A DNA stretch of 64,000 bases. Source: Micromonospora parva (GTDB lineage: Bacteria > Actinomycetota > Actinomycetes > Mycobacteriales > Micromonosporaceae). Positions 3,519 to 32,703 of this stretch are shown here, in pieces (the first letter of the stretch is position 1; every line of letters starts with the position of its first letter). Made by a program: the position numbers and the translations under genes. The notes beneath the pieces are model-generated. The model ran no database searches, was not told where the DNA came from, and saw nothing but the letters and a program-made list of their open reading frames with translations. The stretch spans positions 30,799 to 94,798 of the forward strand of contig NZ_JNZS01000023.1 in the NCBI RefSeq assembly GCF_000718515.1, given 5' to 3'.

Positions 3519-3803
3519 TTATCGGGTGATGCTGCGGCGGCGACCCACGCCGGCCACCAGCGCGACAGCGATCGCGGCCACCACGACCTGCACCAGCAGC
3601 TCGCCCCAGTCGACACCGTTGGTCTCGGTCGCGATGCCGATGGCCCGCGCCAGGACGGTGCCCAGCAGTGCCGCACCGACACCGATCAGCAGGTGCAGCC
3701 AGATCGGCATGTTCTGCCGGCCCGGAACGACCAGGCGGCCGAGCGCGCCGACGATGAGACCAACAACGATCGCAGTGATGATGCCCCACACGGTGAGCTC
3801 CAC
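3519..3803 (-). CDS. GlsB/YeaQ/YmgE-family stress membrane protein, copy 1
   Basis: Small integral membrane protein of 94 residues with three hydrophobic segments. It has the transglycosylase-associated (GlsB/YeaQ) pattern: WGIITAIVVGLIVGALGRLVVPG, then PIWLHLLIGVGAALLG. Members are typically induced by general or envelope stress; molecular role unknown. I chose the second GTG (3803) because the GGAGGG ribosome site sits 5 nt before it, as in the neighbouring copy; an upstream GTG at 3809 overlaps the ribosome site. It is nearly identical to the gene at 4474-4758, and the leader and promoter region are duplicated too. A GTTT-N16-GGGCAA sequence upstream resembles a sigma-B-type promoter. Confidence 0.9.
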   Translation of the reverse strand: MELTVWGIITAIVVGLIVGALGRLVVPGRQNMPIWLHLLIGVGAALLGTVLARAIGIATETNGVDWGELLVQVVVAAIAVALVAGVGRRRSITR

Positions 3804-3864
3804 GGCCACCCTCCTTCAAGAATGTCTGACACACGGTGCGTGTGCTTCCTGTCGTGACCGTTAA

Positions 3865-3890
3865 TTGCCCGACCCACCCAAATTCCAAAC
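3865..3890 (-). promoter_or_regulatory. Possible sigma-B-type promoter of glsB-like copy 1
   Basis: Leftward GTTT (3887-3890), 16-nt spacer, GGGCAA (3865-3870). It is one base off the GGGTAA-like -10 of sigma-B/F promoters and keeps the same position and spacing in the second copy. A 5-bp hairpin (CACAC/GTGTG) lies in the leader downstream. Confidence 0.4.
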
Positions 3891-4473: not shown

Positions 4474-4758
4474 TTACCGGGTCACGCGGCGGCGGCCACC
4501 CACACCGGCCACCAGCGCGACAGCGATCGCCGCGACCACGACCTGCACCAGCAGCTCGCCCCAGTCGACACCGCTCGTCTCGGTCGCGATGCCGATGGCC
4601 CGCGCCAGAACGGTGCCCAGCAGTGCCGCACCGATACCGATCAGCATGTGCAGCCAGATCGGCATGTTCTGCCGGCCCGGGACGACCAGACGGCCGAGCG
4701 CGCCGACGATGAGACCAACAACGATCGCAGTGATGATGCCCCACACGGTGAACTCCAC
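4474..4758 (-). CDS. GlsB/YeaQ/YmgE-family stress membrane protein, copy 2
   Basis: A 94-residue paralogue of the gene at 3519-3803, differing at only a few residues (for example MLIGIG for LLIGVG, TSG for TNG, and the C-terminal GGRRRVTR). The same three hydrophobic segments and the conserved WGIITAIVVGL and GRLVVPGRQ motifs are present. GTG start with GGAGGG five bases upstream. The 5' leader keeps GTCTGACACAC and GTGTGCTTCCTGTCGTGA in both copies while the spacer and far upstream differ, which points to a tandem duplication of promoter, leader and gene. Probably an envelope or general-stress membrane protein; exact role unknown. Confidence 0.9.
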   Translation of the reverse strand: MEFTVWGIITAIVVGLIVGALGRLVVPGRQNMPIWLHMLIGIGAALLGTVLARAIGIATETSGVDWGELLVQVVVAAIAVALVAGVGGRRRVTR

Positions 4759-4820: not shown

Positions 4821-4846
4821 GTGCCCGGCCCCCCGAAAACCCAAAC
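4821..4846 (-). promoter_or_regulatory. Possible sigma-B-type promoter of glsB-like copy 2
   Basis: Leftward GTTT (4843-4846), 16-nt spacer, GGGCAC (4821-4826). Same layout as copy 1. The leader between promoter and gene holds CACAC-GAGCT-GTGTG, a stem conserved in copy 1 with a different loop. Confidence 0.4.
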
Positions 4847-23455: not shown

Positions 23456-23674
23456 ATGGCGCAGCACCCCAAGGGCGACTTCGACCTCTCTCGGGCGGTC
23501 TGGCAGCGGGCCGAGGGGGACACCTCCGACAGCGCCGTTGAGGTCGCGTTCGTCGACGACCTGATCGGCATGCGTAACTCGGCCGAGCCGGACGGGCCGG
23601 TGCTGGTCTTCACCCAGGCCGAGTGGGACGCCTTCGTGGCCGGCGCGCAGGACGGCGAGTTCGACCTGGACTGA
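23456..23674 (+). CDS. DUF397 domain protein
   Basis: 72 residues, ending FTQAEWDAFVAGAQDGEFDLD, the DUF397 signature. In actinomycetes these small acidic proteins usually accompany Xre-type regulators of the BldB/AbaA-orf regulon and may modulate them. No Xre gene is next to this one, so it is an orphan. ATG with GGAGGAAAG 6 nt upstream. Full family length. Confidence 0.9.
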   Translation: MAQHPKGDFDLSRAVWQRAEGDTSDSAVEVAFVDDLIGMRNSAEPDGPVLVFTQAEWDAFVAGAQDGEFDLD

Positions 23675-24196: not shown

Positions 24197-24270
24197 CCGC
24201 CCTCCCCGTGGTTGTCCCACCAGCAGCAAACCAGGTTCCGCCGCCCCTGGGAGGGGCCAGCCGCACCGGG

Positions 24271-24294
24271 GTTCAGCGGCGTCGACCGGGGTAA
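24271..24294 (+). promoter_or_regulatory. Sigma-B/F-type promoter of the CYP152 gene
   Basis: GTTC (24271-24274), 14-bp spacer, GGGTAA (24289-24294), about 48 bp before the start codon. Same pattern as other promoters in this island. Confidence 0.55.
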
Positions 24295-24342
24295 CCGCGG
24301 TGGGCGGCGGCGACCAGCCGCGCCCGCGCGTGAGGAGACCCG

Positions 24343-25605
24343 ATGGCGACCATGCCGGCCGACCGCAGCCCGGACAGCACCCTCGCACTGCTGCGCGCCG
24401 GTTACCGGTTCGTCAGCGAGCGCTGCGAGCGGTACGGCAGCGACGTCTTCCAGACCCGGATCCTGCTCACCCCGACCATCTGCCTACGGGGCCGGCCGGC
24501 GGCGGAGCTGTTCTACGACAACGACCGCTTCCAACGTGACACCGCGATGCCGCTGCGCGTGCAGCGGACCCTGACCGGTCGGGGTGGGGTGCAGGGCCTG
24601 GACGGGCCGGAGCACGACGACCGCAAGGCCATGTTCATGTCGATCATGACACCGACCGCGATCCGGCAACTCGGCCAGCTCTTCGACGACGAGTGGCGGA
24701 CCCGGATCACCGCCTGGGAGGGCGCCGGCCCGGTGTCGCTCTACGACGAGCTGGGCCGGTTGCTGACCCGGGTGGTCTGCGCCTGGGCCGGGGTGCCACT
24801 GCCGACGTCGCAGGTCGAGCGCCGTGCCACCGAGCTGCACGCCATGATCGAAGCCCCAGCGGCGATCGGCCCCCGGCACTGGCGGGGGCGGCTCGCCCGG
24901 TACCGCGCCCAACACTGGCTCACCGACCTCGTCGAACGGACCCGGGTCGGCTCAGCCCCGGCGCCGGCCGGCAGCGCCCTGGCCGTGATCGCCGAACACC
25001 GGGACCGAGCCGGCCGCCTCCTCCCCCGCCGGATCGCGGCGGTGGAGCTGCTCAACGTGTTGCGCCCGGTGGTCGCCGTCGACCAGTACATCGCCTTCGC
25101 CGCGCTCGCCCTGCACGACCATCCGGCCTGGCGGGAACGGGTCCGCGACGACGACGAGGCCACCGAGCACTTCGTCCAGGAGGTCCGCCGCTACTACCCG
25201 TTCTTCCCGCTGGCGGCGGCCCGGGTCCGGCGGTCCTTCGACTGGCAGGGCCATCACTTTCCGAAGGGCCGGCGGGTGCTGCTCGACCTCTACGGCACCA
25301 ACCACCACCCGGCGATCTGGCCGCAACCTGAGCTGTTTCGTCCGGAGCGGTTCGCCGGCCGCCGGGTGGACCCGTTCGAGCTGATCCCGCAGGGCGGCGG
25401 TGATCACTGGGCCGGTCACCGCTGCGCCGGCGAGTGGCTCACCATCGACCTGATGAAGCGGGCGGTCACCAACCTGACCGCCGCCATGCGCTACGACGTG
25501 CCGGTCCAGGACCTGGCCCTGGACCTGCACCGGATGCCGGCGCTGCCGCCGCTGGGCCTGACCGTCACCAACGTCCGCCGCGCGCCCGACCTCCGCCCTG
25601 CCTGA
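24343..25605 (+). CDS. CYP152-family fatty-acid peroxygenase (cytochrome P450)
   Basis: 420-residue P450 of the peroxygenase class, which uses H2O2 directly and needs no reductase. Landmarks are the CYP152 motif GVQGLDG with Gln84 at the position that separates hydroxylases (Gln, P450-BSbeta) from the OleT decarboxylase (His), the carboxylate-binding Arg241 in NVLRPVVA, VRRYYPFFP at 281-289, LDLYGTNHHP, and the haem ligand Cys361 in GHRCAGEW. Alpha/beta-hydroxylation of fatty acids is therefore favoured over alkene formation. ATG with GAGGAG nearby. A sigma-B-type promoter upstream fits a peroxide-linked stress role. Confidence 0.93.
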   Translation: MATMPADRSPDSTLALLRAGYRFVSERCERYGSDVFQTRILLTPTICLRGRPAAELFYDNDRFQRDTAMPLRVQRTLTGRGGVQGLDGPEHDDRKAMFMSIMTPTAIRQLGQLFDDEWRTRITAWEGAGPVSLYDELGRLLTRVVCAWAGVPLPTSQVERRATELHAMIEAPAAIGPRHWRGRLARYRAQHWLTDLVERTRVGSAPAPAGSALAVIAEHRDRAGRLLPRRIAAVELLNVLRPVVAVDQYIAFAALALHDHPAWRERVRDDDEATEHFVQEVRRYYPFFPLAAARVRRSFDWQGHHFPKGRRVLLDLYGTNHHPAIWPQPELFRPERFAGRRVDPFELIPQGGGDHWAGHRCAGEWLTIDLMKRAVTNLTAAMRYDVPVQDLALDLHRMPALPPLGLTVTNVRRAPDLRPA

Positions 25606-25653
25606 CCCGCCCCACCGGTCACGGTGCCCGGCGAGACGGGTGCCCCCGGCCCG

Positions 25654-26823
25654 TCAGGGATGCAGCACGCTGCGCAGACAGCCGTCCTCCTTCTTCTCGA
25701 ACAGCTCGTACCCGTGGACGCCCTCGTCCAGGGAGAGCGGATGGGTGGCCAGATAGCCGGGCTCGATCTCGCCGGCGGCGAGCCGGTCGAGCAGCATCGG
25801 AATGTAGCGCTGCGCGTGCATCTGTCCCATCCGCAGCACCAGGGCCTTGTTCATGGCCGCGCCGAGCGGAAACTTGTCGACCAGGCCGGCGTAGACACCG
25901 ACGATGCTCACCGTGCCGCCCTTGCGGCAGGCCATGATCGCCTGCCGGACCGAGGTCGGGCGGTCGGTCTGCAACCGGGCCGCCTGCTTCACCCGGTCGT
26001 ACGCGTAGGTCGGCCCGACGTCGTGCGACTCCATTCCGACGGCCTCGATGCAGGCGTCCGGCCCGCGCCCGGCGGTCAACTCCCGCAGCGCCTCCAACAC
26101 GTCGGTCTCCGCGTAGTTGATCGTCTCGACCCCGATCCGTTCGGCGGCGGTGGCGAGCCGATCCGGAAACCGGTCGATCATGATGACCCGTTCGGCGCCC
26201 AGGAGCTGCGCCGAGCGGGCCGCCATCTGACCGACTCCCCCGGCACCCCAGACGGCCACCACCTCGCCACCGGTCAGCCCGCAGAAGTCCGCCGCCATCC
26301 ATCCCGTGGGCATCGCGTCGGAGGCGAACACCACCGAGTCGTCCGGCACTCCCTCGGGTACGGCGAATGCGCCGATGTCACCGAACGGCACCCTGATGTA
26401 CTCGGCGTGCGATCCGGCGTAGCCGCCAGCGGCGTGCGAATACCCCAGGATGCCGGCCGCCGCGTGCCCCCACAGCTTCTCGGTGAACACCGGCTGCGGG
26501 TTGGAGTTGTCGCAGAGCGAGTACTGCTCGGTCCGGCAGTACCAACAGCCACCGCAGGCGACCACCGACCCCACCACCACCCGGTCGCCGACCCGGTGCC
26601 GCCGTACGCCGGGCCCGGTCTCCACCACCTCGCCCATGAACTCGTGGCCGAGGATGTCCCCCTCCCGCATCGCCGGCAGGTACCCGTTGATCAGGTGCAG
26701 GTCGGATCCGCAGACACTGCTGGCCCGGACCCGGACGATGATGTCCCCCTCGGCGCGGATCCGGGGCTCCGGCACGTCCCGGACCGCCAGCTTGCCGACG
26801 CCTTCCCAGCAGAGCGCCCTCAC
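25654..26823 (-). CDS. Zinc-dependent alcohol dehydrogenase (glutathione-independent formaldehyde dehydrogenase-like)
   Basis: 389-residue MDR enzyme. Catalytic zinc ligands lie in VCGSDLH and GHEFMGEV; the structural zinc site is CGGCWYCRTEQYSLC; the NAD site is GAGGVG. The long loop with YAGSHAEYIRVP and the C-terminal LRMGQMHAQRYIP resemble the FDH/threonine-dehydrogenase-like group. GTG start overlaps the SRPBCC stop by 4 bp with GGAGGA upstream, so it is coupled to it. Substrate unknown; an aldehyde or alcohol arising under stress is an inference from its promoter and neighbours. Confidence 0.9.
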   Translation of the reverse strand: MRALCWEGVGKLAVRDVPEPRIRAEGDIIVRVRASSVCGSDLHLINGYLPAMREGDILGHEFMGEVVETGPGVRRHRVGDRVVVGSVVACGGCWYCRTEQYSLCDNSNPQPVFTEKLWGHAAAGILGYSHAAGGYAGSHAEYIRVPFGDIGAFAVPEGVPDDSVVFASDAMPTGWMAADFCGLTGGEVVAVWGAGGVGQMAARSAQLLGAERVIMIDRFPDRLATAAERIGVETINYAETDVLEALRELTAGRGPDACIEAVGMESHDVGPTYAYDRVKQAARLQTDRPTSVRQAIMACRKGGTVSIVGVYAGLVDKFPLGAAMNKALVLRMGQMHAQRYIPMLLDRLAAGEIEPGYLATHPLSLDEGVHGYELFEKKEDGCLRSVLHP

Positions 26824-27458
26824 GCCCGTCCTCCCGTCATCAACGTCTCCCGCATCCTGTCGGTCCTCTTCTCCTGGGCCCGGCTGCGGCCGGACGGGTC
26901 GTCCCGGGTGTCCAACACCTGGCCGCACTCGACCAGCGCCTTCGCCCGCCGCAGCGCGTCCCGCAGCGCCAGGTCCGGTTCGTCGCCGCCGACCAGGCCG
27001 ACCAACCGGCGCAGCGGGCCGGAGCGGTAGCGCATCTCGGCGCGGATCTCGGTGCCGCGGCCCTGCGGGGCCTCGGCCAGCTCGATCCGCCCCAGCTGCG
27101 GCATCGGCCCGTCCTCGACCCGCCAATGCAGCGTGCCCGCCTCCTCGACGGTGATCTCGGCCTGCCACTGCGTCTCACCGGCGGCCCGGTCCCGGGCCAC
27201 GCACCGCCACCGGCGTTCGTCGAGCTGTCGCAACGTGGCCCAGCCGGCCAGCGCCCGGTCCCGCCGTTCGCGGTCGGCCCAGAAGCCGATCACCTCGTCC
27301 CGGGGCCGGTCCACTGTCACTGCGCGACGCACCACGTACCAGCCGTCCTGCCGCTGCGGCTGATGCCGATGCCGGCGGCGGGCCACCGCCCGCCCCACGC
27401 CGACCGCCGTCGCCGCGGTGACGCCGAGCAGCGCCCACCTGGTTCCGTTGTTGGTCAT
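26820..27458 (-). CDS. Membrane-anchored SRPBCC (cyclase/dehydrase-like) protein
   Basis: 212 residues. A short N-terminal hydrophobic anchor (RWALLGVTAATAVGVGRAVA) and basic RRRHRH precede an SRPBCC lipid-binding domain (VRRAVTVDRPRDEVIGFWAD, then GRGTEIRAEMRYR). Related actinobacterial proteins sit with zinc dehydrogenases and are annotated as coenzyme Q-binding or cyclase-like. ATG at 27458 has GGAGAGAG upstream. First gene of a two-gene operon with the dehydrogenase, behind a good sigma-B-type promoter. Confidence 0.85.
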   Translation of the reverse strand: MTNNGTRWALLGVTAATAVGVGRAVARRRHRHQPQRQDGWYVVRRAVTVDRPRDEVIGFWADRERRDRALAGWATLRQLDERRWRCVARDRAAGETQWQAEITVEEAGTLHWRVEDGPMPQLGRIELAEAPQGRGTEIRAEMRYRSGPLRRLVGLVGGDEPDLALRDALRRAKALVECGQVLDTRDDPSGRSRAQEKRTDRMRETLMTGGRA

Positions 27459-27511
27459 CACGTCTCTCTCCTCCACGGAAAACCGGGCATGGACCGCCCT
27501 TACGGGCAGCG

Positions 27512-27536
27512 CTACCCGGGGCCCGGCCGTCGAAAC
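27512..27536 (-). promoter_or_regulatory. Sigma-B/F-type promoter of SRPBCC-dehydrogenase operon
   Basis: Leftward GTTT (27533-27536), 15-bp spacer, GGGTAG (27512-27517), 54 bp before the SRPBCC start. The best match to the sigma-B/F consensus in the window. Confidence 0.65.
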
Positions 27537-27615
27537 GACCCGGCCGTTTGATCCCCGTGATTGCGGGCAGACTCTGCTCGGCACCGGCCGCGGCCCTGTC
27601 CGTCACGGAGTTGTC

Positions 27616-28668
27616 ATGTCCCCGTTCAGCCCCACTGGTGACACCCGGCGCGGTGCGCGTCGGGAGGTCGAACACGAGGGCGCCGGCCCGTCGCCGGTCC
27701 GTCTGCCGATGACGTACGTCCTGCCGCTGCGCTGGCACTCCGACAACGGCCTGGCCGAGCTGACCGACTACCTGCGCTGGCTGTCCGACCGGGTCGAGGT
27801 GCTCGTGGTCGACGGCTCACCTCCGGACCTCTTCGCCCGGCACGCCGACGCCTGGGCGGGGCTGGTCCGGCACCTCCCGCCCGACGTCACCGGTGCCGGG
27901 CTCAACGGAAAAGTGGTCGGCGTACGCACCGGGGTACGCGCGGCGGAGCACGAGCACGTGGTGATCGCCGATGACGACGTCCGGTACGACCAGGCCGGGC
28001 TGACCGCCGTGCACCTACTGCTCGACGAGGTCGATCTGGTCCGGCCGCAGAACTACTTCGACCCGCTGCCCTGGCACGCCTGGTGGGACACCGGTCGCAC
28101 GCTGCTCAACCGGGCGCTCGGGGCGGACTACCCGGGCTCCCTGGCCGTGCGACACAGCACCTTCCTCGGCATGGGCGGGTACGACCCGGACGTGCTCTTC
28201 GAGAACCTGGAGCTGATCCGCACCGTGCGCGCGTACGGTGGCACCGAGGCCGCCCCGGCCTGGCTGTACGTCCGCCGACTGCCACCGGACGCCGCGCACT
28301 TCCGCGGCCAACGGGTCCGTCAGGCGTACGACGATCTGGCGCAGCCGGCGCGCCTGCTGACCGCGCTCGCGGTCCTTCCGGCACTGGCCGCGGCGGTCGC
28401 GGCCCGGCGACCCGGGTTGGTGTTCGGCGCGGCGGCCGGCACTGTCGCGCTCGCCGAGGTCGGTCGCCGTCGAGCGGGCGGTGTCGCGGTCTTCCCCGCG
28501 ACGACGGCGCTGGCGGCACCGCTCTGGCTGCTGGAGCGTGGCGTGTGCGGCTGGCTCGCGGTCGCCCAGCGGTTCCTGCTCGGCGGCGTCCGGTACGGCG
28601 ACACCCGCATCCGCCGGGCCGCCCACCCGGTCCGGGCCCTGCGCCCACAGGTGGGTGACCGCCCCTGA
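27616..28668 (+). CDS. Family-2-like glycosyltransferase with C-terminal membrane segments
   Basis: 350 residues. A GT-A fold N-terminal domain with the metal-binding ADDDVRYD motif (about residues 116-123), preceded by VEVLVVDGSPPDLF and NGKVVGVRTGVRAAEHEHVVIADDD. Two to three hydrophobic segments follow residue 245, so the enzyme is probably membrane-associated and acts on a lipid or wall precursor. ATG with ACGGAG 6 nt upstream. It diverges from the SRPBCC operon and ends at a strong bidirectional terminator. Donor and acceptor unknown. Confidence 0.82.
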   Translation: MSPFSPTGDTRRGARREVEHEGAGPSPVRLPMTYVLPLRWHSDNGLAELTDYLRWLSDRVEVLVVDGSPPDLFARHADAWAGLVRHLPPDVTGAGLNGKVVGVRTGVRAAEHEHVVIADDDVRYDQAGLTAVHLLLDEVDLVRPQNYFDPLPWHAWWDTGRTLLNRALGADYPGSLAVRHSTFLGMGGYDPDVLFENLELIRTVRAYGGTEAAPAWLYVRRLPPDAAHFRGQRVRQAYDDLAQPARLLTALAVLPALAAAVAARRPGLVFGAAAGTVALAEVGRRRAGGVAVFPATTALAAPLWLLERGVCGWLAVAQRFLLGGVRYGDTRIRRAAHPVRALRPQVGDRP

Positions 28669-28673
28669 CAGCA

Positions 28674-28711
28674 CGACAGCTCGCGGTCACCGCAGTGGCC
28701 GCGAGCTGTCG
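28674..28711. terminator. Bidirectional terminator
   Basis: CGACAGCTCGCGG (28674-28686) and its perfect complement (28699-28711) between convergent stops at 28668 and 28730. Confidence 0.85.
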
Positions 28712-28729
28712 CAACGGTGGTCGACCCGG

Positions 28730-29380
28730 TCAGGGGCTGACCTGGTGCCGGGCCTGCTGGGCCTGGTCCTTGACGTCCTGCGCGGCGGACTTGCTGTCGT
28801 CCTTGACCGCGTGCACGGCATCCTGAGCGGTGGACTTCACCGACGCGGCGGCCTGCTGGGCCGGCTCGCGCAGTTCTTCCTTCAGCTCGTTCGCGACCGC
28901 GCCCAGCTTCTCCGTCACCGCCCCGCTGTGCTCGCTGACCCGCTCCTTGAGCTGGGTCGCGGCCTGCTGCTCACGACGGGAGGCCGGGATCAGCGACGAG
29001 GCCAGCCAGCCGACCCCGAACGCGATCAGACCGGCGGCAAGCGGGTTGCCCTGGGACTTCTGCCGGATCACCCGCGGCGCGCTGTGGGCGGCGTCGCTGA
29101 CGGTGGCCGCCGCCGAGTGCGCGGCGTCGCTGACGCTGGAGGCCGCCGACGAGGCGTGGTCGCCCACCGAGTGGGCGGCCTGGCCGGTGCCGTGGCCGAG
29201 GTCAGACGCAGTTCCCATGACCTTGTCCCTCACATTCTGCAGAGCGGAGCGGGCCCGCTGCTTACGGTCGTCGACGATGCGGCTGGGGCTGACCTTGTAC
29301 GCCAGCGCATCCACATCGGAGCTGAGGCTGTTGCGGGTGGCTTCGATCTCACGGCGGATCTGATCGGGATCGGTGCTCAT
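28730..29380 (-). CDS. DUF3618 domain protein
   Basis: 216 residues. The DUF3618 motif DPDQIRREIEATRNSLSSDVDAL opens the protein, followed by a serine/alanine-rich helical stretch of repeating SDAAHSA, a single membrane segment (GLIAFGVGWLASSLI) and an amphipathic Lys/Ala/Gln-rich tail resembling LEA or apolipoprotein helices. ATG overlaps the holin-X stop by 4 bp. Third gene of the leftward unit. Such proteins are thought to bind or stabilise the membrane; no experimental function is known to me. Confidence 0.85.
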   Translation of the reverse strand: MSTDPDQIRREIEATRNSLSSDVDALAYKVSPSRIVDDRKQRARSALQNVRDKVMGTASDLGHGTGQAAHSVGDHASSAASSVSDAAHSAAATVSDAAHSAPRVIRQKSQGNPLAAGLIAFGVGWLASSLIPASRREQQAATQLKERVSEHSGAVTEKLGAVANELKEELREPAQQAAASVKSTAQDAVHAVKDDSKSAAQDVKDQAQQARHQVSP

Positions 29381-29844
29381 CGGGTGACTCCCTCCGGGTG
29401 TGGCTTGAGCGCGTCGGGGATCCGCTGCACGCTGTCGTTGGTCTGCTTGAGCCCGCGTACGTGCTGGGCGTTCTTCTTGGCCGCCGAGTAGAGGACGGCG
29501 GCGACCACGGCCCAGATCACGGCCACGATCAGCGCGGCCAGACCGGAGTCCATGACGTTGTCCAGGAACTGCCACACGGCGATGGACACGAAGAGAGCCA
29601 CCATGTAGCCGCCGAAGCCGGCACCGCCGAAGAGGCCCGCGGCCTTGCCGGCCTTCTTGCCCTCCTGGCGGATCTCGGCCTTGGCCAGCTCGACCTCCTG
29701 ACGCATCAGCGTCGACAGGTCGGTGGTGACCTGACGCATCAGGTCGCCGAGCGAGCTGTTCTTCACCTCCGCGTCGGTGTGCGGGGCCCCCGCGGTGGGG
29801 TGGTAACCGGAGTCCAGGCCGGACCCCTGCGTCGGCATGCTCAT
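29377..29844 (-). CDS. Phage holin family (Holin-X, PF07332) protein
   Basis: 155 residues with two membrane segments around residues 72-94 and 101-121, preceded by the family motif LMRQVTTDLSTLMRQEVELAKAEIRQEGKKAGKAAG. In actinobacteria these proteins are chromosomal and travel with DUF3618 genes; despite the name, no lysis role is implied. ATG with GGGAGACGAC upstream. Translationally coupled to the DUF3618 gene. Confidence 0.85.
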   Translation of the reverse strand: MSMPTQGSGLDSGYHPTAGAPHTDAEVKNSSLGDLMRQVTTDLSTLMRQEVELAKAEIRQEGKKAGKAAGLFGGAGFGGYMVALFVSIAVWQFLDNVMDSGLAALIVAVIWAVVAAVLYSAAKKNAQHVRGLKQTNDSVQRIPDALKPHPEGVTR

Positions 29845-29875
29845 GCCGTCGTCTCCCTTCGGATGACTCGGCGGC

Positions 29876-30721
29876 TCACGGGCGCGGGTTGCCGCTGGAC
29901 GGCACGCCCGGCAGCGGGTCGGTCTGGGTCACCGGCGGCAGCGGCTGACCGGTGCCGGAGTGCTCCGGGTGGTCGCCCCGGCCGGGCTCGGCGTAACCAC
30001 CGGACGCCGGGTCGGCGTAGCCGGCAGCCGTCTGGTCGGCGTAGCCACCGGACGTCGGCGGGGTGTGCGTGCCGGGGGTCGGGTCGAGGTAGCCACCGGC
30101 CGGAACGGCGTCCGGCACCGCGCGAGGCGCCGGCGGCGGCGTCGGGATCACCGCGGTCTGCTCCGGGTCGTACGCGCCCGCACCCCGGTAGCCGGCGGAA
30201 CCGTTGCCGGAGTCGTCACCGGCCGCCGAGATGCCACGGGTCAACCGACCCGCCAGCACACCGAGGACCGCCGCGCCGACCAGGAAGGTGCCCGGGTTGC
30301 GCCGCGCGTAGTCGCGGACCTCGGTGACGAGGTCACCGGGCTGGCGCTCCTCGAGCCAGCCGGCCACACCGTGCACCCGGTCGGCGGCCTGGCGGGCCAG
30401 CTCGGTCACCGGGCCGGCCTGGCCACCCTGCTCGGCCATCGAGCGCATCTCGTCGGCCAGCGAACGCAGCCCACCGGCCGCCTTGCGCTGCTGCTCACCG
30501 GTCTGGCTGGCGAGCTGGTTGCGAGCCTCGCCGTACAGGTTGCGGGCCTGCCGGGCCGCCTCACGGCCGACCTCGGTGCCCTGCTCCTTGGCGGTCTGGG
30601 CGACCGCCCCGCCGGCCTGCGCGGCCTCCGACCCGACCTGGCGCGCCTGGTCGCGGACGCCGCCGCCGTTGGTCGAGGGCTGCCCGTACGTGGAGGAGGT
30701 CGGTGAAAGATCGTAAGTCAT
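29876..30721 (-). CDS. Membrane-associated helical protein with Gly/Tyr/Pro-rich tail
   Basis: 281 residues, no named family recognised. Residues 20-130 form a charged, alanine-rich helix resembling LEA-type repeats (QVGSEAAQAGGAVAQTAKEQ, REAARQARNLYGEAR). A hydrophobic segment FLVGAAVLGVLAGRLTRG lies at about 146-163. The tail has repeated GGYADQTA, GYADPASGGYAEP units. ATG at 30721 with GGAAGGG 6 nt upstream. First gene of the three-gene unit with holin-X and DUF3618, under a sigma-B-type promoter. Likely an envelope-stress or desiccation protein by context. Confidence 0.75.
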   Translation of the reverse strand: MTYDLSPTSSTYGQPSTNGGGVRDQARQVGSEAAQAGGAVAQTAKEQGTEVGREAARQARNLYGEARNQLASQTGEQQRKAAGGLRSLADEMRSMAEQGGQAGPVTELARQAADRVHGVAGWLEERQPGDLVTEVRDYARRNPGTFLVGAAVLGVLAGRLTRGISAAGDDSGNGSAGYRGAGAYDPEQTAVIPTPPPAPRAVPDAVPAGGYLDPTPGTHTPPTSGGYADQTAAGYADPASGGYAEPGRGDHPEHSGTGQPLPPVTQTDPLPGVPSSGNPRP

Positions 30722-30800
30722 GATTTCCCTTCCGCTCAGCAAGTCGTCGCGGTATGTGCTGGGGGGATGCGGCGCGATGTTGCCGCCGCTGACCATTGAC

Positions 30801-30825
30801 CTACCCTGCGTTTCGGCTTCCATAC
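30801..30825 (-). promoter_or_regulatory. Sigma-B/F-type promoter of helical protein-holinX-DUF3618 operon
   Basis: Leftward GTAT (30822-30825), 15-bp spacer, GGGTAG (30801-30806), 80 bp before the first start codon. Confidence 0.5.
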
Positions 30826-30951
30826 CTCTTCGTGCATTTCTCTGCGCGGCCCACCGGATGAACTTCAAAATGGAGGATCGTCGGGCTGCGTCACGTCGCC
30901 GCTGCGGACAGTGAGGTTCGCGAGGCCGACAGATCCACGGAGGGGGCAGCG

Positions 30952-31443
30952 ATGGCACGAGGCGCACGAGGCGGTCGGGCGGCCGGTCCCCGACCCCGCG
31001 TCCAGCTGGCCGCACTGGTCGTGGCCGGGGTCTTCCTGCTGATCGGTGTCCTCGGCTTCATCCCCGGCATCACCACCGACTACGGCGAGCTGAGGTTCGC
31101 CGGGCACCACTCGGACGCCCGCCTGCTCGGGCTGTTCCAGGTGTCGATCCTGCACAACGCGGTGCACCTGCTCTTCGGGCTGGCTGGCCTGGTGCTGGCC
31201 CGCAGCATCGCCGGCGCCCGCGTGTTCCTGGCCGCCGGCGGCGCGATCTACCTCGCCCTCTGGCTGTACGGCCTGGCCATCGAGGCGGTCAACCCGGAAG
31301 GCGGGGCGAACATCCTGCCGGTCAACGACGCCGACAACTGGCTGCACCTCGCGCTCGGCTTCGGGATGCTGGCGCTCGGGCTGCTGCTGTCGAACCAGGC
31401 GGGCACCGGTGGACGCCTGGACAGCCCCGCCGAACGGCGCTGA
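30952..31443 (+). CDS. DUF4383 membrane protein
   Basis: 163 residues with four hydrophobic segments. The family pattern is clear: GVLGFIPGITTDYGELRFAGHHSDARLLGLFQVSILHNAVHLLFGLAGL and later DADNWLHLALGFGMLALG. Function unknown; common in actinobacteria, often in stress regulons. ATG with CGGAGGGGG 6 nt upstream. It diverges from the operon at 30721 and is followed 64 bp later by the DUF6766 gene, with its own promoter in between. Confidence 0.88.
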   Translation: MARGARGGRAAGPRPRVQLAALVVAGVFLLIGVLGFIPGITTDYGELRFAGHHSDARLLGLFQVSILHNAVHLLFGLAGLVLARSIAGARVFLAAGGAIYLALWLYGLAIEAVNPEGGANILPVNDADNWLHLALGFGMLALGLLLSNQAGTGGRLDSPAERR

Positions 31444-31456
31444 CCTGGCGCTCTTT

Positions 31457-31483
31457 GTTTCGCCGCCAGGCAAACAGGGGTAA
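31457..31483 (+). promoter_or_regulatory. Sigma-B/F-type promoter of DUF6766 gene
   Basis: GTTT (31457-31460), 17-bp spacer, GGGTAA (31478-31483), 25 bp before the start, with GAAGGAGG just upstream of the ATG. Confidence 0.55.
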
Positions 31484-31507: not shown

Positions 31508-32167
31508 ATGCCTCGTTGGCTGCGTGACAACGCCCTGGCAGTCGCCATGCTGGGCGCGTTCCTGGTCTTCCTCGTGTTGCAGAGCGTCTTCGGCTGGCAG
31601 ACCCACAACGAGGAGCTGACCGAGTTCGGGGCCGCACCGCTGAGCTGGCCGGCGTACCTGACCAGCGGGCACTTCGCCGAGGCGGTCTTCGAGAACTGGG
31701 AGTCGGAGTTCCTCCAGATGGGCGGCTACGTGCTGCTCACCGCGTACCTGGTGCAGCGGGGCTCGGCCGAGTCCAAGCCGGTGGACCAGACCGACCGGCC
31801 GGAGGACGACGAGCGCCGCGCGACCCCGCAGTCACCCTGGCCGGTCCGCGTCGGCGGCCTGCCGTTGGTGGTCTACCGGAACAGCCTCTCCATCGCGCTG
31901 CTGCTGATCTTCGCCGGTTCCTTCGTCGGTCACCTGCTCGGTGGCACCGCCGCCTACAACCAGGAGCAGGCGCTCCAGAGCGGCGCGCCGCCGATCGGGG
32001 TGTGGGAGTTCCTCGGCACCAGCGACTTCTGGTTCCAGTCGATGCAGAACTGGCAGAGCGAGTTCCTCGCTGTGGGCGCGCTGATCCTGCTGAGCATCGT
32101 GCTGCGCCAGCACGCCTCGCCGGAGTCGAAGCCGGTGACCGTCGCGCACGCCAGCACCGGCGCCTGA
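31508..32167 (+). CDS. DUF6766 family membrane protein with internal duplication
   Basis: 219 residues, four hydrophobic segments arranged as two similar halves. Half one (residues 5-98) and half two (118-213) share the order RN-hydrophobic helix, W-E/Q-SEFL, hydrophobic helix, then R-x-S-x-ESKPV (SAESKPV and SPESKPV). This shows an ancient tandem duplication inside the gene. Function unknown. ATG with a strong GGAGG. Stress induction is suggested by its promoter. Confidence 0.85.
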   Translation: MPRWLRDNALAVAMLGAFLVFLVLQSVFGWQTHNEELTEFGAAPLSWPAYLTSGHFAEAVFENWESEFLQMGGYVLLTAYLVQRGSAESKPVDQTDRPEDDERRATPQSPWPVRVGGLPLVVYRNSLSIALLLIFAGSFVGHLLGGTAAYNQEQALQSGAPPIGVWEFLGTSDFWFQSMQNWQSEFLAVGALILLSIVLRQHASPESKPVTVAHASTGA

Positions 32168-32183: not shown

Positions 32184-32633
32184 TCAGGCCGCGACCGGCA
32201 GCCGCTTGGCGAAACAGACGCTGTACGGGTTGCCCACGTACTCGCCGTAGACCGGGATCTGCTGGTAGCCACACGAGGTGTACAGCGCGATCGCCGCCGG
32301 CAGGTAGGTGCCCGTCTCCAGGCAGACCACCGAGTGCCCCTGCCGGAACGCGCACTCCTCCAACGCGGCGAGCAACTGACGACCGATCCCCCGCCCCCGG
32401 TACGCGGGCCGGACGTACATCCGCTTGACCTCGCCGGTCTCGGCGTCGAGCGCCTGGAGCCCACCGCAGGCCACCGCCCGACCGTTCACCACCACCGCCA
32501 GGTAGCGGACGTCGTCGTGCGGCATGAAGACCTGCCCGTCCAACCCGCCATCGGCCTCGCGCAGCTCACGCTGCTGCGCGGTGACCATGGCGGCGATCTC
32601 CGGATCGATGGCAGGCCGGGACTCGATCAGCAT
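32184..32633 (-). CDS. GNAT family N-acetyltransferase
   Basis: 149-residue GNAT enzyme. The acetyl-CoA-binding motif A is VKRMYVRPAYRGRGIGRQLL (R-x-x-G-x-G), with LETGTYLPAAIALYTSCGYQQIPVYGEY as the C-terminal motif B. The substrate is unknown. Start is either ATG at 32633 or the GTG immediately before it; TAGCGT upstream would suit a leaderless transcript. Converges with the DUF6766 gene 16 bp away. Confidence 0.88.
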   Translation of the reverse strand: MLIESRPAIDPEIAAMVTAQQRELREADGGLDGQVFMPHDDVRYLAVVVNGRAVACGGLQALDAETGEVKRMYVRPAYRGRGIGRQLLAALEECAFRQGHSVVCLETGTYLPAAIALYTSCGYQQIPVYGEYVGNPYSVCFAKRLPVAA

Positions 32634-32703
32634 CACCCCACGCTAGGACGCGCCGATTTCGCGAAGGTTTCCGGAAATCAACCCCATCACGGAGCGCAAC
32701 GAA

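Follow-up and report, generated by a model that had tools for sequence, protein, structure and literature searches.

The closest described relative of the regulatory system treated here is the sigma-SsdA/SipA pair of Actinoplanes missouriensis, in which a sigma factor of the BFG type carries a C-terminal STAS domain, is accompanied by a STAS-HATPase protein and has the motif GnTT-n14-CGGGTA (PMC10733313, a source available in part, as are PMC8346170 and PMC7824861 below). According to the available part of that report, probable sigma-SsdA targets include catalase, glutamate-cysteine ligase, short-chain dehydrogenase and alcohol dehydrogenase genes, these targets are transcribed during sporangium formation and at a very low level in vegetative growth, zoospores of an ssdA deletion mutant are peroxide-sensitive, and orthologues of SsdA and SipA with ctaD between them occur in Micromonospora. 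For the SigB-family sigma-H of Actinoplanes sp. SE50/110 the elements (G/C)GTTT(A/C) and GGGTA were reported at a spacing of 14.6 +/- 1.9 nucleotides (nt), and its overexpression strongly induces two DUF3618/Holin-X gene groups (PMC11205660, Table 1). The nine SigB homologues of Streptomyces coelicolor use -35 elements GTTT or GNNT and -10 elements GGGTA or GGGCA and cross-recognise promoters (PMC8346170), and in Bacillus subtilis, which belongs to a different phylum, the SigB regulon has GTTT-N-GGG(A/T)A promoters and cypC (CYP152A1, ybdT) is listed as SigB-controlled during germination and outgrowth (PMC7824861). Here we describe promoter elements of this kind in a 64 kb stretch of the Micromonospora parva genome (contig NZ_JNZS01000023.1), hereafter the window, in front of a CYP152-type P450 gene and its neighbours.

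Micromonospora is a major antibiotic-producing genus, and the host genome of the window comprises 7.1 Mb in 87 contigs. Judged by the evidence below, the elements are very probably working promoters for RNA polymerase carrying a SigB/SigF-family sigma factor, and the units behind them would belong to a general and oxidative stress regulon of Micromonospora. The target classes of Actinoplanes SsdA named above are shared here. Unlike in that system, CYP152 and SRPBCC proteins are not named as targets in the available part of the report, where 11 of the 17 targets are hypothetical proteins. The genes ACSP50_4921-4923 of the sigma-H study (DUF3618, Holin-X, unknown protein) have the order of an operon in the window, and P450, DUF4383 and catalase were not found in the main text of that paper. 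No CYP152 target was seen for the S. coelicolor homologues in the accessible part of the report. In the literature searched, which includes sources available in part, neither this Micromonospora regulon nor SigB-type control of an actinobacterial CYP152 gene was described. The kind of control is already known, and the peroxide-type lipid enzyme is its unexpected member. The analysis thus maps a SigB-type general-stress regulon of Micromonospora at sequence level, with candidate sigma and anti-sigma partners, and assigns a fatty-acid P450 of the peroxide-using type to what is probably a stress regulon in a second phylum.

Promoter elements in the window and in related Micromonospora

An earlier note on this DNA had described four such elements and two weaker ones upstream of a pair of glsB-like genes, and we found all of them in the letters of the window. 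The candidate promoters are as follows.

24270..24293, plus strand: SigB-type promoter of the P450 gene, G(A/G)TT-N15-GGGTA; matched in 28 of 28 ortholog sets (window included), in the exact register in 26 of 28
27513..27536, minus strand: SigB-type promoter of the SRPBCC-alcohol dehydrogenase operon, GTTT-N14-CGGGTA; strict match in 21 of 21 sets (window included)
30802..30825, minus strand: SigB-type promoter of the LEA-HolinX-DUF3618 operon, with a divergent -35 element, G(T/C)ATGG-N13-GGGTA
31457..31482, plus strand: SigB-type promoter of the DUF6766 gene, GTTT-N17-GGGTA; mostly GTTT-N16-GGGCA in relatives
3866..3890, minus strand: promoter of glsB-like gene 1, GTTT-N16-GGGCA
4822..4846, minus strand: promoter of glsB-like gene 2, GTTT-N16-GGGCA
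27546..27569, plus strand: possible extra promoter, GTTT-N15-GGGCA, 47 nt 5' of the glycosyltransferase gene

The -35 pattern G(T/A)T(T/C) of the earlier note does not cover the site at 30801, which reads GTAT-N15-GGGTAG. The P450 element had been read as GTTC-N14 from 24271, a register that we rejected, since it fits 10 of 28 orthologs and the register G(A/G)TT-N15-GGGTA, shifted left by one base, fits 26 of 28. When the window was scanned with the earlier pattern and GTAT admitted in addition, four matches were found, and each is followed within 150 nt by a predicted gene start on its own strand. In dinucleotide-shuffled sequence 0.12 such matches are expected in front of the 57 predicted genes (200 shuffles, with at most 3 in any of them) and 0.45 matches over the whole window (20 shuffles).

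For footprinting we used 40 regions of the genus, picked for spread out of 77 genomes with a DUF6766 match (one of them, L148, is short). Ortholog sets were counted with the window included, and members were dropped if the match started after residue 12, coverage was below 30% or 150 nt or less lay upstream. Matches were present upstream of the P450 gene in 28 of 28, of the SRPBCC gene in 21 of 21 and of the DUF6766 gene in 41 of 41 sets, and shuffled upstream regions gave 0.15-0.30 per set. The SRPBCC promoter fits the published GnTT-n14-CGGGTA in 18 of 21 sets; the P450 promoter has GnTT-N15-GGGTA in 26 of 28, but the base preceding GGGTA varies. Upstream of the LEA operon the preset pattern matched in 15 of 35 sets (shuffles 0.40), and G(T/C)ATGG-N13-GGGTA, a pattern written after the alignment was seen, matched in 34 of 35. 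The spacers drift in the alignments (pairwise identity 0.39-0.66); identities of the motif columns are fixed by picking rows with the motif and were not used.

Over the 41 DUF6766 sets the -10 element reads GGGTA in 8, GGGCA in 32 and GGGAA in 1. As the element alternates in this way, GGGCA may be an equal variant of GGGTA and not a weak one. Among 30 glsB-like loci, taken as the best matches of 61 genomes, GTTT-N16-GGG(C/A)A was present in all 28 that could be assessed, two (L250 and L251) being cut by contig ends. For the glycosyltransferase gene 7 of the 10 sets that could be assessed, the window among them, have a similar element, which in five lies 0-5 nt from the assigned start. In the window this element (27546-27569, plus strand) forms a divergent pair with that of the SRPBCC gene (27513-27536, minus strand), the plus-strand one facing the glycosyltransferase gene.

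SigB-type elements of their own were looked for and not found at six genes of the region, with zero or one match per gene: alcohol dehydrogenase (0/16), DUF3618 (0/35), Holin-X (0/35), the GNAT-region gene at 32184-32636 (0/39), the small gene at 23456-23674 (0/26) and DUF4383 (1/35).

Genome-wide census of the motif

The motif GTTT-N14-17-GGGTA was found at 62 sites in the genome, compared with 11 for the reversed pattern and 16 for a wrong-spacing control (GTTT-N18-21-GGGTA). While intergenic sequence makes up 12.8% of the 679,415 bases examined, 52 of the 62 sites are intergenic and 10 lie inside predicted genes. Both intergenic and at most 300 nt from a codirectional gene start are 46 of the 62, versus 6 of the 16 wrong-spacing sites (Fisher p 0.008), one of these controls being also a right-spacing site and two lying at contig ends, where they could not be placed. 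GTTT-N14-17-GGGCA occurs at 77 sites versus 22 for its control, and 11 of the 19 sites classified, mostly those inside stretches already retrieved, are intergenic and upstream of genes.

The distance from GGGTA to the start codon was two-humped over the 46 sites, with 11 at 8-12 nt, none at 13-25 nt and the remainder at 26 nt or more. Leaderless transcripts would place start codons 8-12 nt past GGGTA, and ribosome-binding sites, judged by eye, are present in many of the longer leaders. This suggests that about a quarter of the regulon is made as leaderless mRNA (for example C10:117216, C16:29226 and C42:914). Clustering of the motif was considered as proof of an island and not used: 14 of the 62 sites are no more than 5 kb from another one where 5.3 are expected, and random maxima reach 16.

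We profiled 51 first genes downstream, four of which have the site inside a predicted gene and one at a distance of 329 nt. Among them are a long catalase, OsmC, three hemerythrins, three DUF2267, two DUF2231 and one DUF4383 protein, a ClpC-like ATPase, S30AE, glutamate-cysteine ligase and a mechanosensitive-channel-like protein, as well as formamidopyrimidine-DNA glycosylase-like, STAS, STAS-HATPase (partner-switch) and DksA-like proteins. The strict motif stands upstream of 3 of the 8 hemerythrin genes (p 1.8e-5, 6500 genes assumed). The earlier note had set genome-wide enrichment of the motif upstream of stress genes as one of its two refutation tests, and this enrichment was found. Its core reading is thereby supported by the sequence evidence: the elements appear to be SigB-type promoters of a general-stress regulon. 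The fatty-acid and membrane theme that it saw in the regulon rests on few genes, and the promoters that it took to tie an island together fall into three sub-types, the island being a small slice of a genome-wide regulon.

Candidate sigma factors and alternative explanations

Three genes of the genome score over the SigB/F/G cut-off of TIGR02980, one each on contigs 10, 16 and 4. The sigma factor on contig 10 has a C-terminal STAS fusion and is followed by ctaD and then by a STAS-HATPase gene (L041:9023-13107), which by architecture and neighbourhood is the ssdA-ctaD-sipA order described for Micromonospora. A G.TT/GGG(T/C)A match was present upstream of the sipA-like (STAS-HATPase) gene in 32 of 32 loci holding the gene, which suggests feedback.

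For sigma binding, induction, start sites and enzyme activities we infer the following course. An anti-sigma protein, SipA-like for one of the sigma factors, would hold the sigma factor in unstressed cells, and stress or entry into sporulation would free it. The holoenzyme would then read the GTTT-like/GGGTA-like promoters and start transcription about 8-12 nt past GGGTA, and a sipA-like gene under the same promoter would make the response self-limiting. The CYP152 P450 would spend H2O2 in hydroxylating fatty acids, the SRPBCC-alcohol dehydrogenase pair would handle a hydrophobic carbonyl or alcohol, and the membrane proteins (LEA/Holin-X/DUF3618, DUF6766 and GlsB-like) would adapt the envelope.

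Some results weigh against this reading. A role in stress is not apparent for many of the 51 first genes (for example asparagine synthase, an EPSP synthase-type protein, a SteA-like protein and an acyltransferase; others have no Pfam match), and the stress enrichment was judged by inspection, with a formal random-gene test for one family only, the hemerythrins. Gene starts were called with a gene finder of our own making and, since 6 of 16 wrong-spacing sites also stand upstream of genes, a minority of the 46 upstream sites are probably chance. The relatives share ancestry, so that the ortholog counts are non-independent events; the LEA promoter is matched in only 15 of 35 sets by the pattern as first set, and reaches 34 only by the after-the-fact one. 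Six of the 43 Micromonosporaceae CYP152 loci among the best 80 of 547 have no regular element. The division of the promoters into three sub-types speaks against a single sigma factor, and the 50 HATPase_c_2 matches in the genome make other anti-sigma proteins possible.

Which of the three sigma factors reads which promoter might be indicated by the published motifs. The SRPBCC promoter and, nearly, the P450 promoter fit the sigma-SsdA motif, the LEA, DUF6766 and glsB promoters do not, and the LEA operon has the gene order of sigma-H targets. At least two SigB-type sigma factors may therefore share the island. That the P450 and SRPBCC-alcohol dehydrogenase promoters belong to the SsdA-like sigma factor and the others to a sigma-H-like paralog is, in our estimate, an even call, and by analogy with S. 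coelicolor such sharing might include cross-recognition.

Control of all units by one sigma-H/B-like paralog (contig 16 or contig 4), with the SsdA-like sigma factor uninvolved, would agree with the Actinoplanes sigma-H motif, with the Holin-X/DUF3618 precedent and with the cross-recognition reported for the S. coelicolor SigB homologues in the available part of PMC8346170. We consider it doubtful, because SsdA is indicated both by GnTT-n14-CGGGTA at the SRPBCC gene and by the four target classes, named above, that are held in common with Actinoplanes. It is also rather unlikely that the promoters are of the SigB type and the regulon serves mainly development (sporulation, stationary phase) over acute stress: the sporangium-phase transcription of sigma-SsdA targets speaks for this, whereas the peroxide sensitivity of ssdA-deletion zoospores (both from the available part of PMC10733313) and the many stress-like genes downstream speak against it. 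Control of all four units and the glsB pair by the SsdA-like sigma factor alone seems improbable. Several motif sites do lie near the ssdA-like gene on contig 10, and the fit of the SRPBCC and P450 promoters is as this explanation predicts, but in most relatives the DUF6766 and glsB promoters have N16-17 with GGGCA or GGGAA, the LEA operon has G(T/C)ATGG, the genome encodes three sigma factors and in Actinoplanes it is sigma-H that induces Holin-X/DUF3618 genes. That the elements arose by chance in a genome rich in G+C, as the 10 sites inside predicted genes and the 6 upstream wrong-spacing sites could suggest, is very unlikely, given a shuffle expectation of about 0.1 for the window and ortholog matches at the P450, SRPBCC and DUF6766 sites far above those in shuffled sequence.

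CYP152 promoters across phyla

The CYP152 loci compared come from named genomes and are the best 80 of 547. Upstream of 37 of the 43 Micromonosporaceae loci we found G(A/G/T)TT-N14-17-GGG(T/C)A; the six irregular loci comprise two with GGGTA and GAAT, two with GGGTA and no regular -35 element, and two in which GGGTA is lost. The Micromonosporaceae pattern was present at none of the 37 loci of other groups. A second pattern, GTTT-N14-16-GGGAA, which had been narrowed after a looser first look, occurs at two of the four Bacillaceae loci, where shuffling gives chances of 0.005 and 0.015, and is absent from all 33 loci of the remaining groups. A CYP152 relative at E 1e-40 is encoded by 14 of 396 Actinomycetota genomes. 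The Micromonospora-type promoter was sought elsewhere in this phylum and rejected, a regular element being present in 0 of 12 relatives outside the genus. Five of these 12 (L158-L161 and L163) show look-alikes under looser patterns.

Together with the listing of B. subtilis cypC as SigB-controlled, this raises the possibility that the CYP152 peroxygenase was recruited independently into SigB-type stress regulons of two phyla, in Bacillaceae and in Micromonospora. We put this forward tentatively; separate recruitment in the two lineages is possible and rests on few Bacillaceae. Such recruitment might be explained by the usefulness of an H2O2-driven lipid-modifying enzyme without redox partner when peroxide rises. 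If true, the enzyme would spend peroxide and remodel or clear membrane-derived fatty acids. It counts against this possibility that the gene cypC does not appear in the main text of a newer paper on the B. subtilis SigB regulon (PMC9847131). Two reports, each available in part, likewise count against it: B. subtilis cypC mutants were more, not less, diamide-tolerant (PMC7885715), and CypC has a further function in making surfactin and fengycin (PMC12405028).

The SsdA-like sigma factor across the genus

Of 121 genomes of the genus, 89 have a full-length ssdA-like gene and 1 a split one, 28 have one that lacks an intact STAS tail, and 3 gave no match at E 1e-75; candidates above the E-value limit were scored at 16 per genome, so that "missing" is no proof of absence. 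Many Micromonospora SsdA-like proteins, which we liken to SsdA by architecture and gene order, thus have no intact STAS tail, unlike Actinoplanes SsdA. In the 20 of the 28 tail-less cases that we examined the sigma protein ends at 283-300 residues; 15 of these cases have a sipA-like gene nearby and 5 have none. Where the tail is lost, the sigma part keeps an identity of about 95-97%.

On a ctaD tree of 41 loci (20 without and 21 with the tail) the distribution of the tail needs 4 changes, at least 3 of which are forced by well-supported branches. Losses are the likelier direction of these changes, which suggests from the sequences that the STAS tail was lost more than once in the genus (L275-L282, L303-L342). 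SipA is reported to bind sigma-SsdA by way of this tail, and its repeated loss would provide natural deletions for testing the published model of inhibition through SipA and STAS.

At L280 and L281 the sipA-like gene directly adjoins the ssdA-like gene with no intervening ctaD, which departs from the order published for Micromonospora. Strong DUF6766 orthologs were found in 66 of the 89 genomes with an intact STAS tail versus 0 of the 28 without, a comparison uncorrected for ancestry and not used as evidence. In a single case, that of L182 (genome G516), the best match to ssdA among candidates above an E-value limit is 49% identical, so that a close ssdA-like gene seems to be missing, which is again no proof of absence; the CYP152 gene there has no regular element.

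Genes of the island

The genes of the island and the glsB-like pair are as follows.

24343..25605, plus strand: CYP152-type P450, probably an H2O2-using fatty-acid peroxygenase
25654..26823, minus strand: zinc-dependent alcohol dehydrogenase, probable second gene of the SRPBCC operon, frames overlapping by 4 nt
26820..27458, minus strand: SRPBCC (helix-grip) protein with a hydrophobic N-terminal stretch
27616..28668, plus strand: glycosyltransferase (family 2/21-like), weak Pfam match
28730..29380, minus strand: DUF3618 membrane protein (Pfam), probable third gene of its operon
29377..29844, minus strand: Actinobacterial Holin-X protein (Pfam), probable second gene of its operon
29876..30721, minus strand: LEA-like helical protein (description of the earlier note), first gene of the LEA-HolinX-DUF3618 operon
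30952..31443, plus strand: DUF4383 membrane protein (Pfam), without a SigB-type element
31508..32167, plus strand: DUF6766 membrane protein (Pfam)
3519..3809, minus strand: glsB-like small membrane protein 1 (name from the earlier note), weak NCBIfam match of 23.4 bits with a cut-off of 129
4474..4758, minus strand: glsB-like small membrane protein 2, sharing 92% identity with copy 1

The P450, which the earlier note took to use H2O2, can be assigned to CYP152 by sequence: the best solved relatives include the fatty acid alpha-hydroxylase 3awm (459 bits) and P450 152A1, 1izo (445 bits), and R241, P242 and C361 are invariant in an alignment of ten sequences. The Arg-Pro (R241, P242) we take to be the substrate-binding pair and C361 the haem cysteine. 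Against the CypC model NF053744 the protein scores 543.8 bits, below the equivalog cut-off of 600. The pair of SRPBCC protein and zinc dehydrogenase was likewise recovered, the dehydrogenase by a profile match. The SRPBCC protein has no match to Pfam or NCBIfam profiles; its AlphaFold2 model, of moderate confidence (pLDDT 68), has the helix-grip fold, with 3ggn as the top Foldseek match (E 2.1e-8). Pfam matches also bear out the DUF3618, Holin-X and DUF6766 genes, and a DUF6766 match was found in 77 of the 121 genomes of the genus, strong in 69.

Gene order is mostly kept across the forty regions. The alcohol dehydrogenase/SRPBCC pair (25654-27458) is an optional insert between the P450 and glycosyltransferase genes, and L132, L133, L134 and L139 have an SRPBCC match and its promoter and no alcohol dehydrogenase match.

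The LEA-like protein has no match in Pfam or NCBIfam. Its start is placed at 30796 by the gene finder; we preferred the ATG at 30721 because a ribosome-binding site is seen there, and the element is at most 150 nt upstream whichever start is used. Between this promoter and the DUF4383 gene, at about 30835-30880 of the window, stand the blocks CCTCCATTxTG and CGCAGAGAAA (minus strand). Both lie 5' of the LEA promoter and are found again in most of the aligned relatives.

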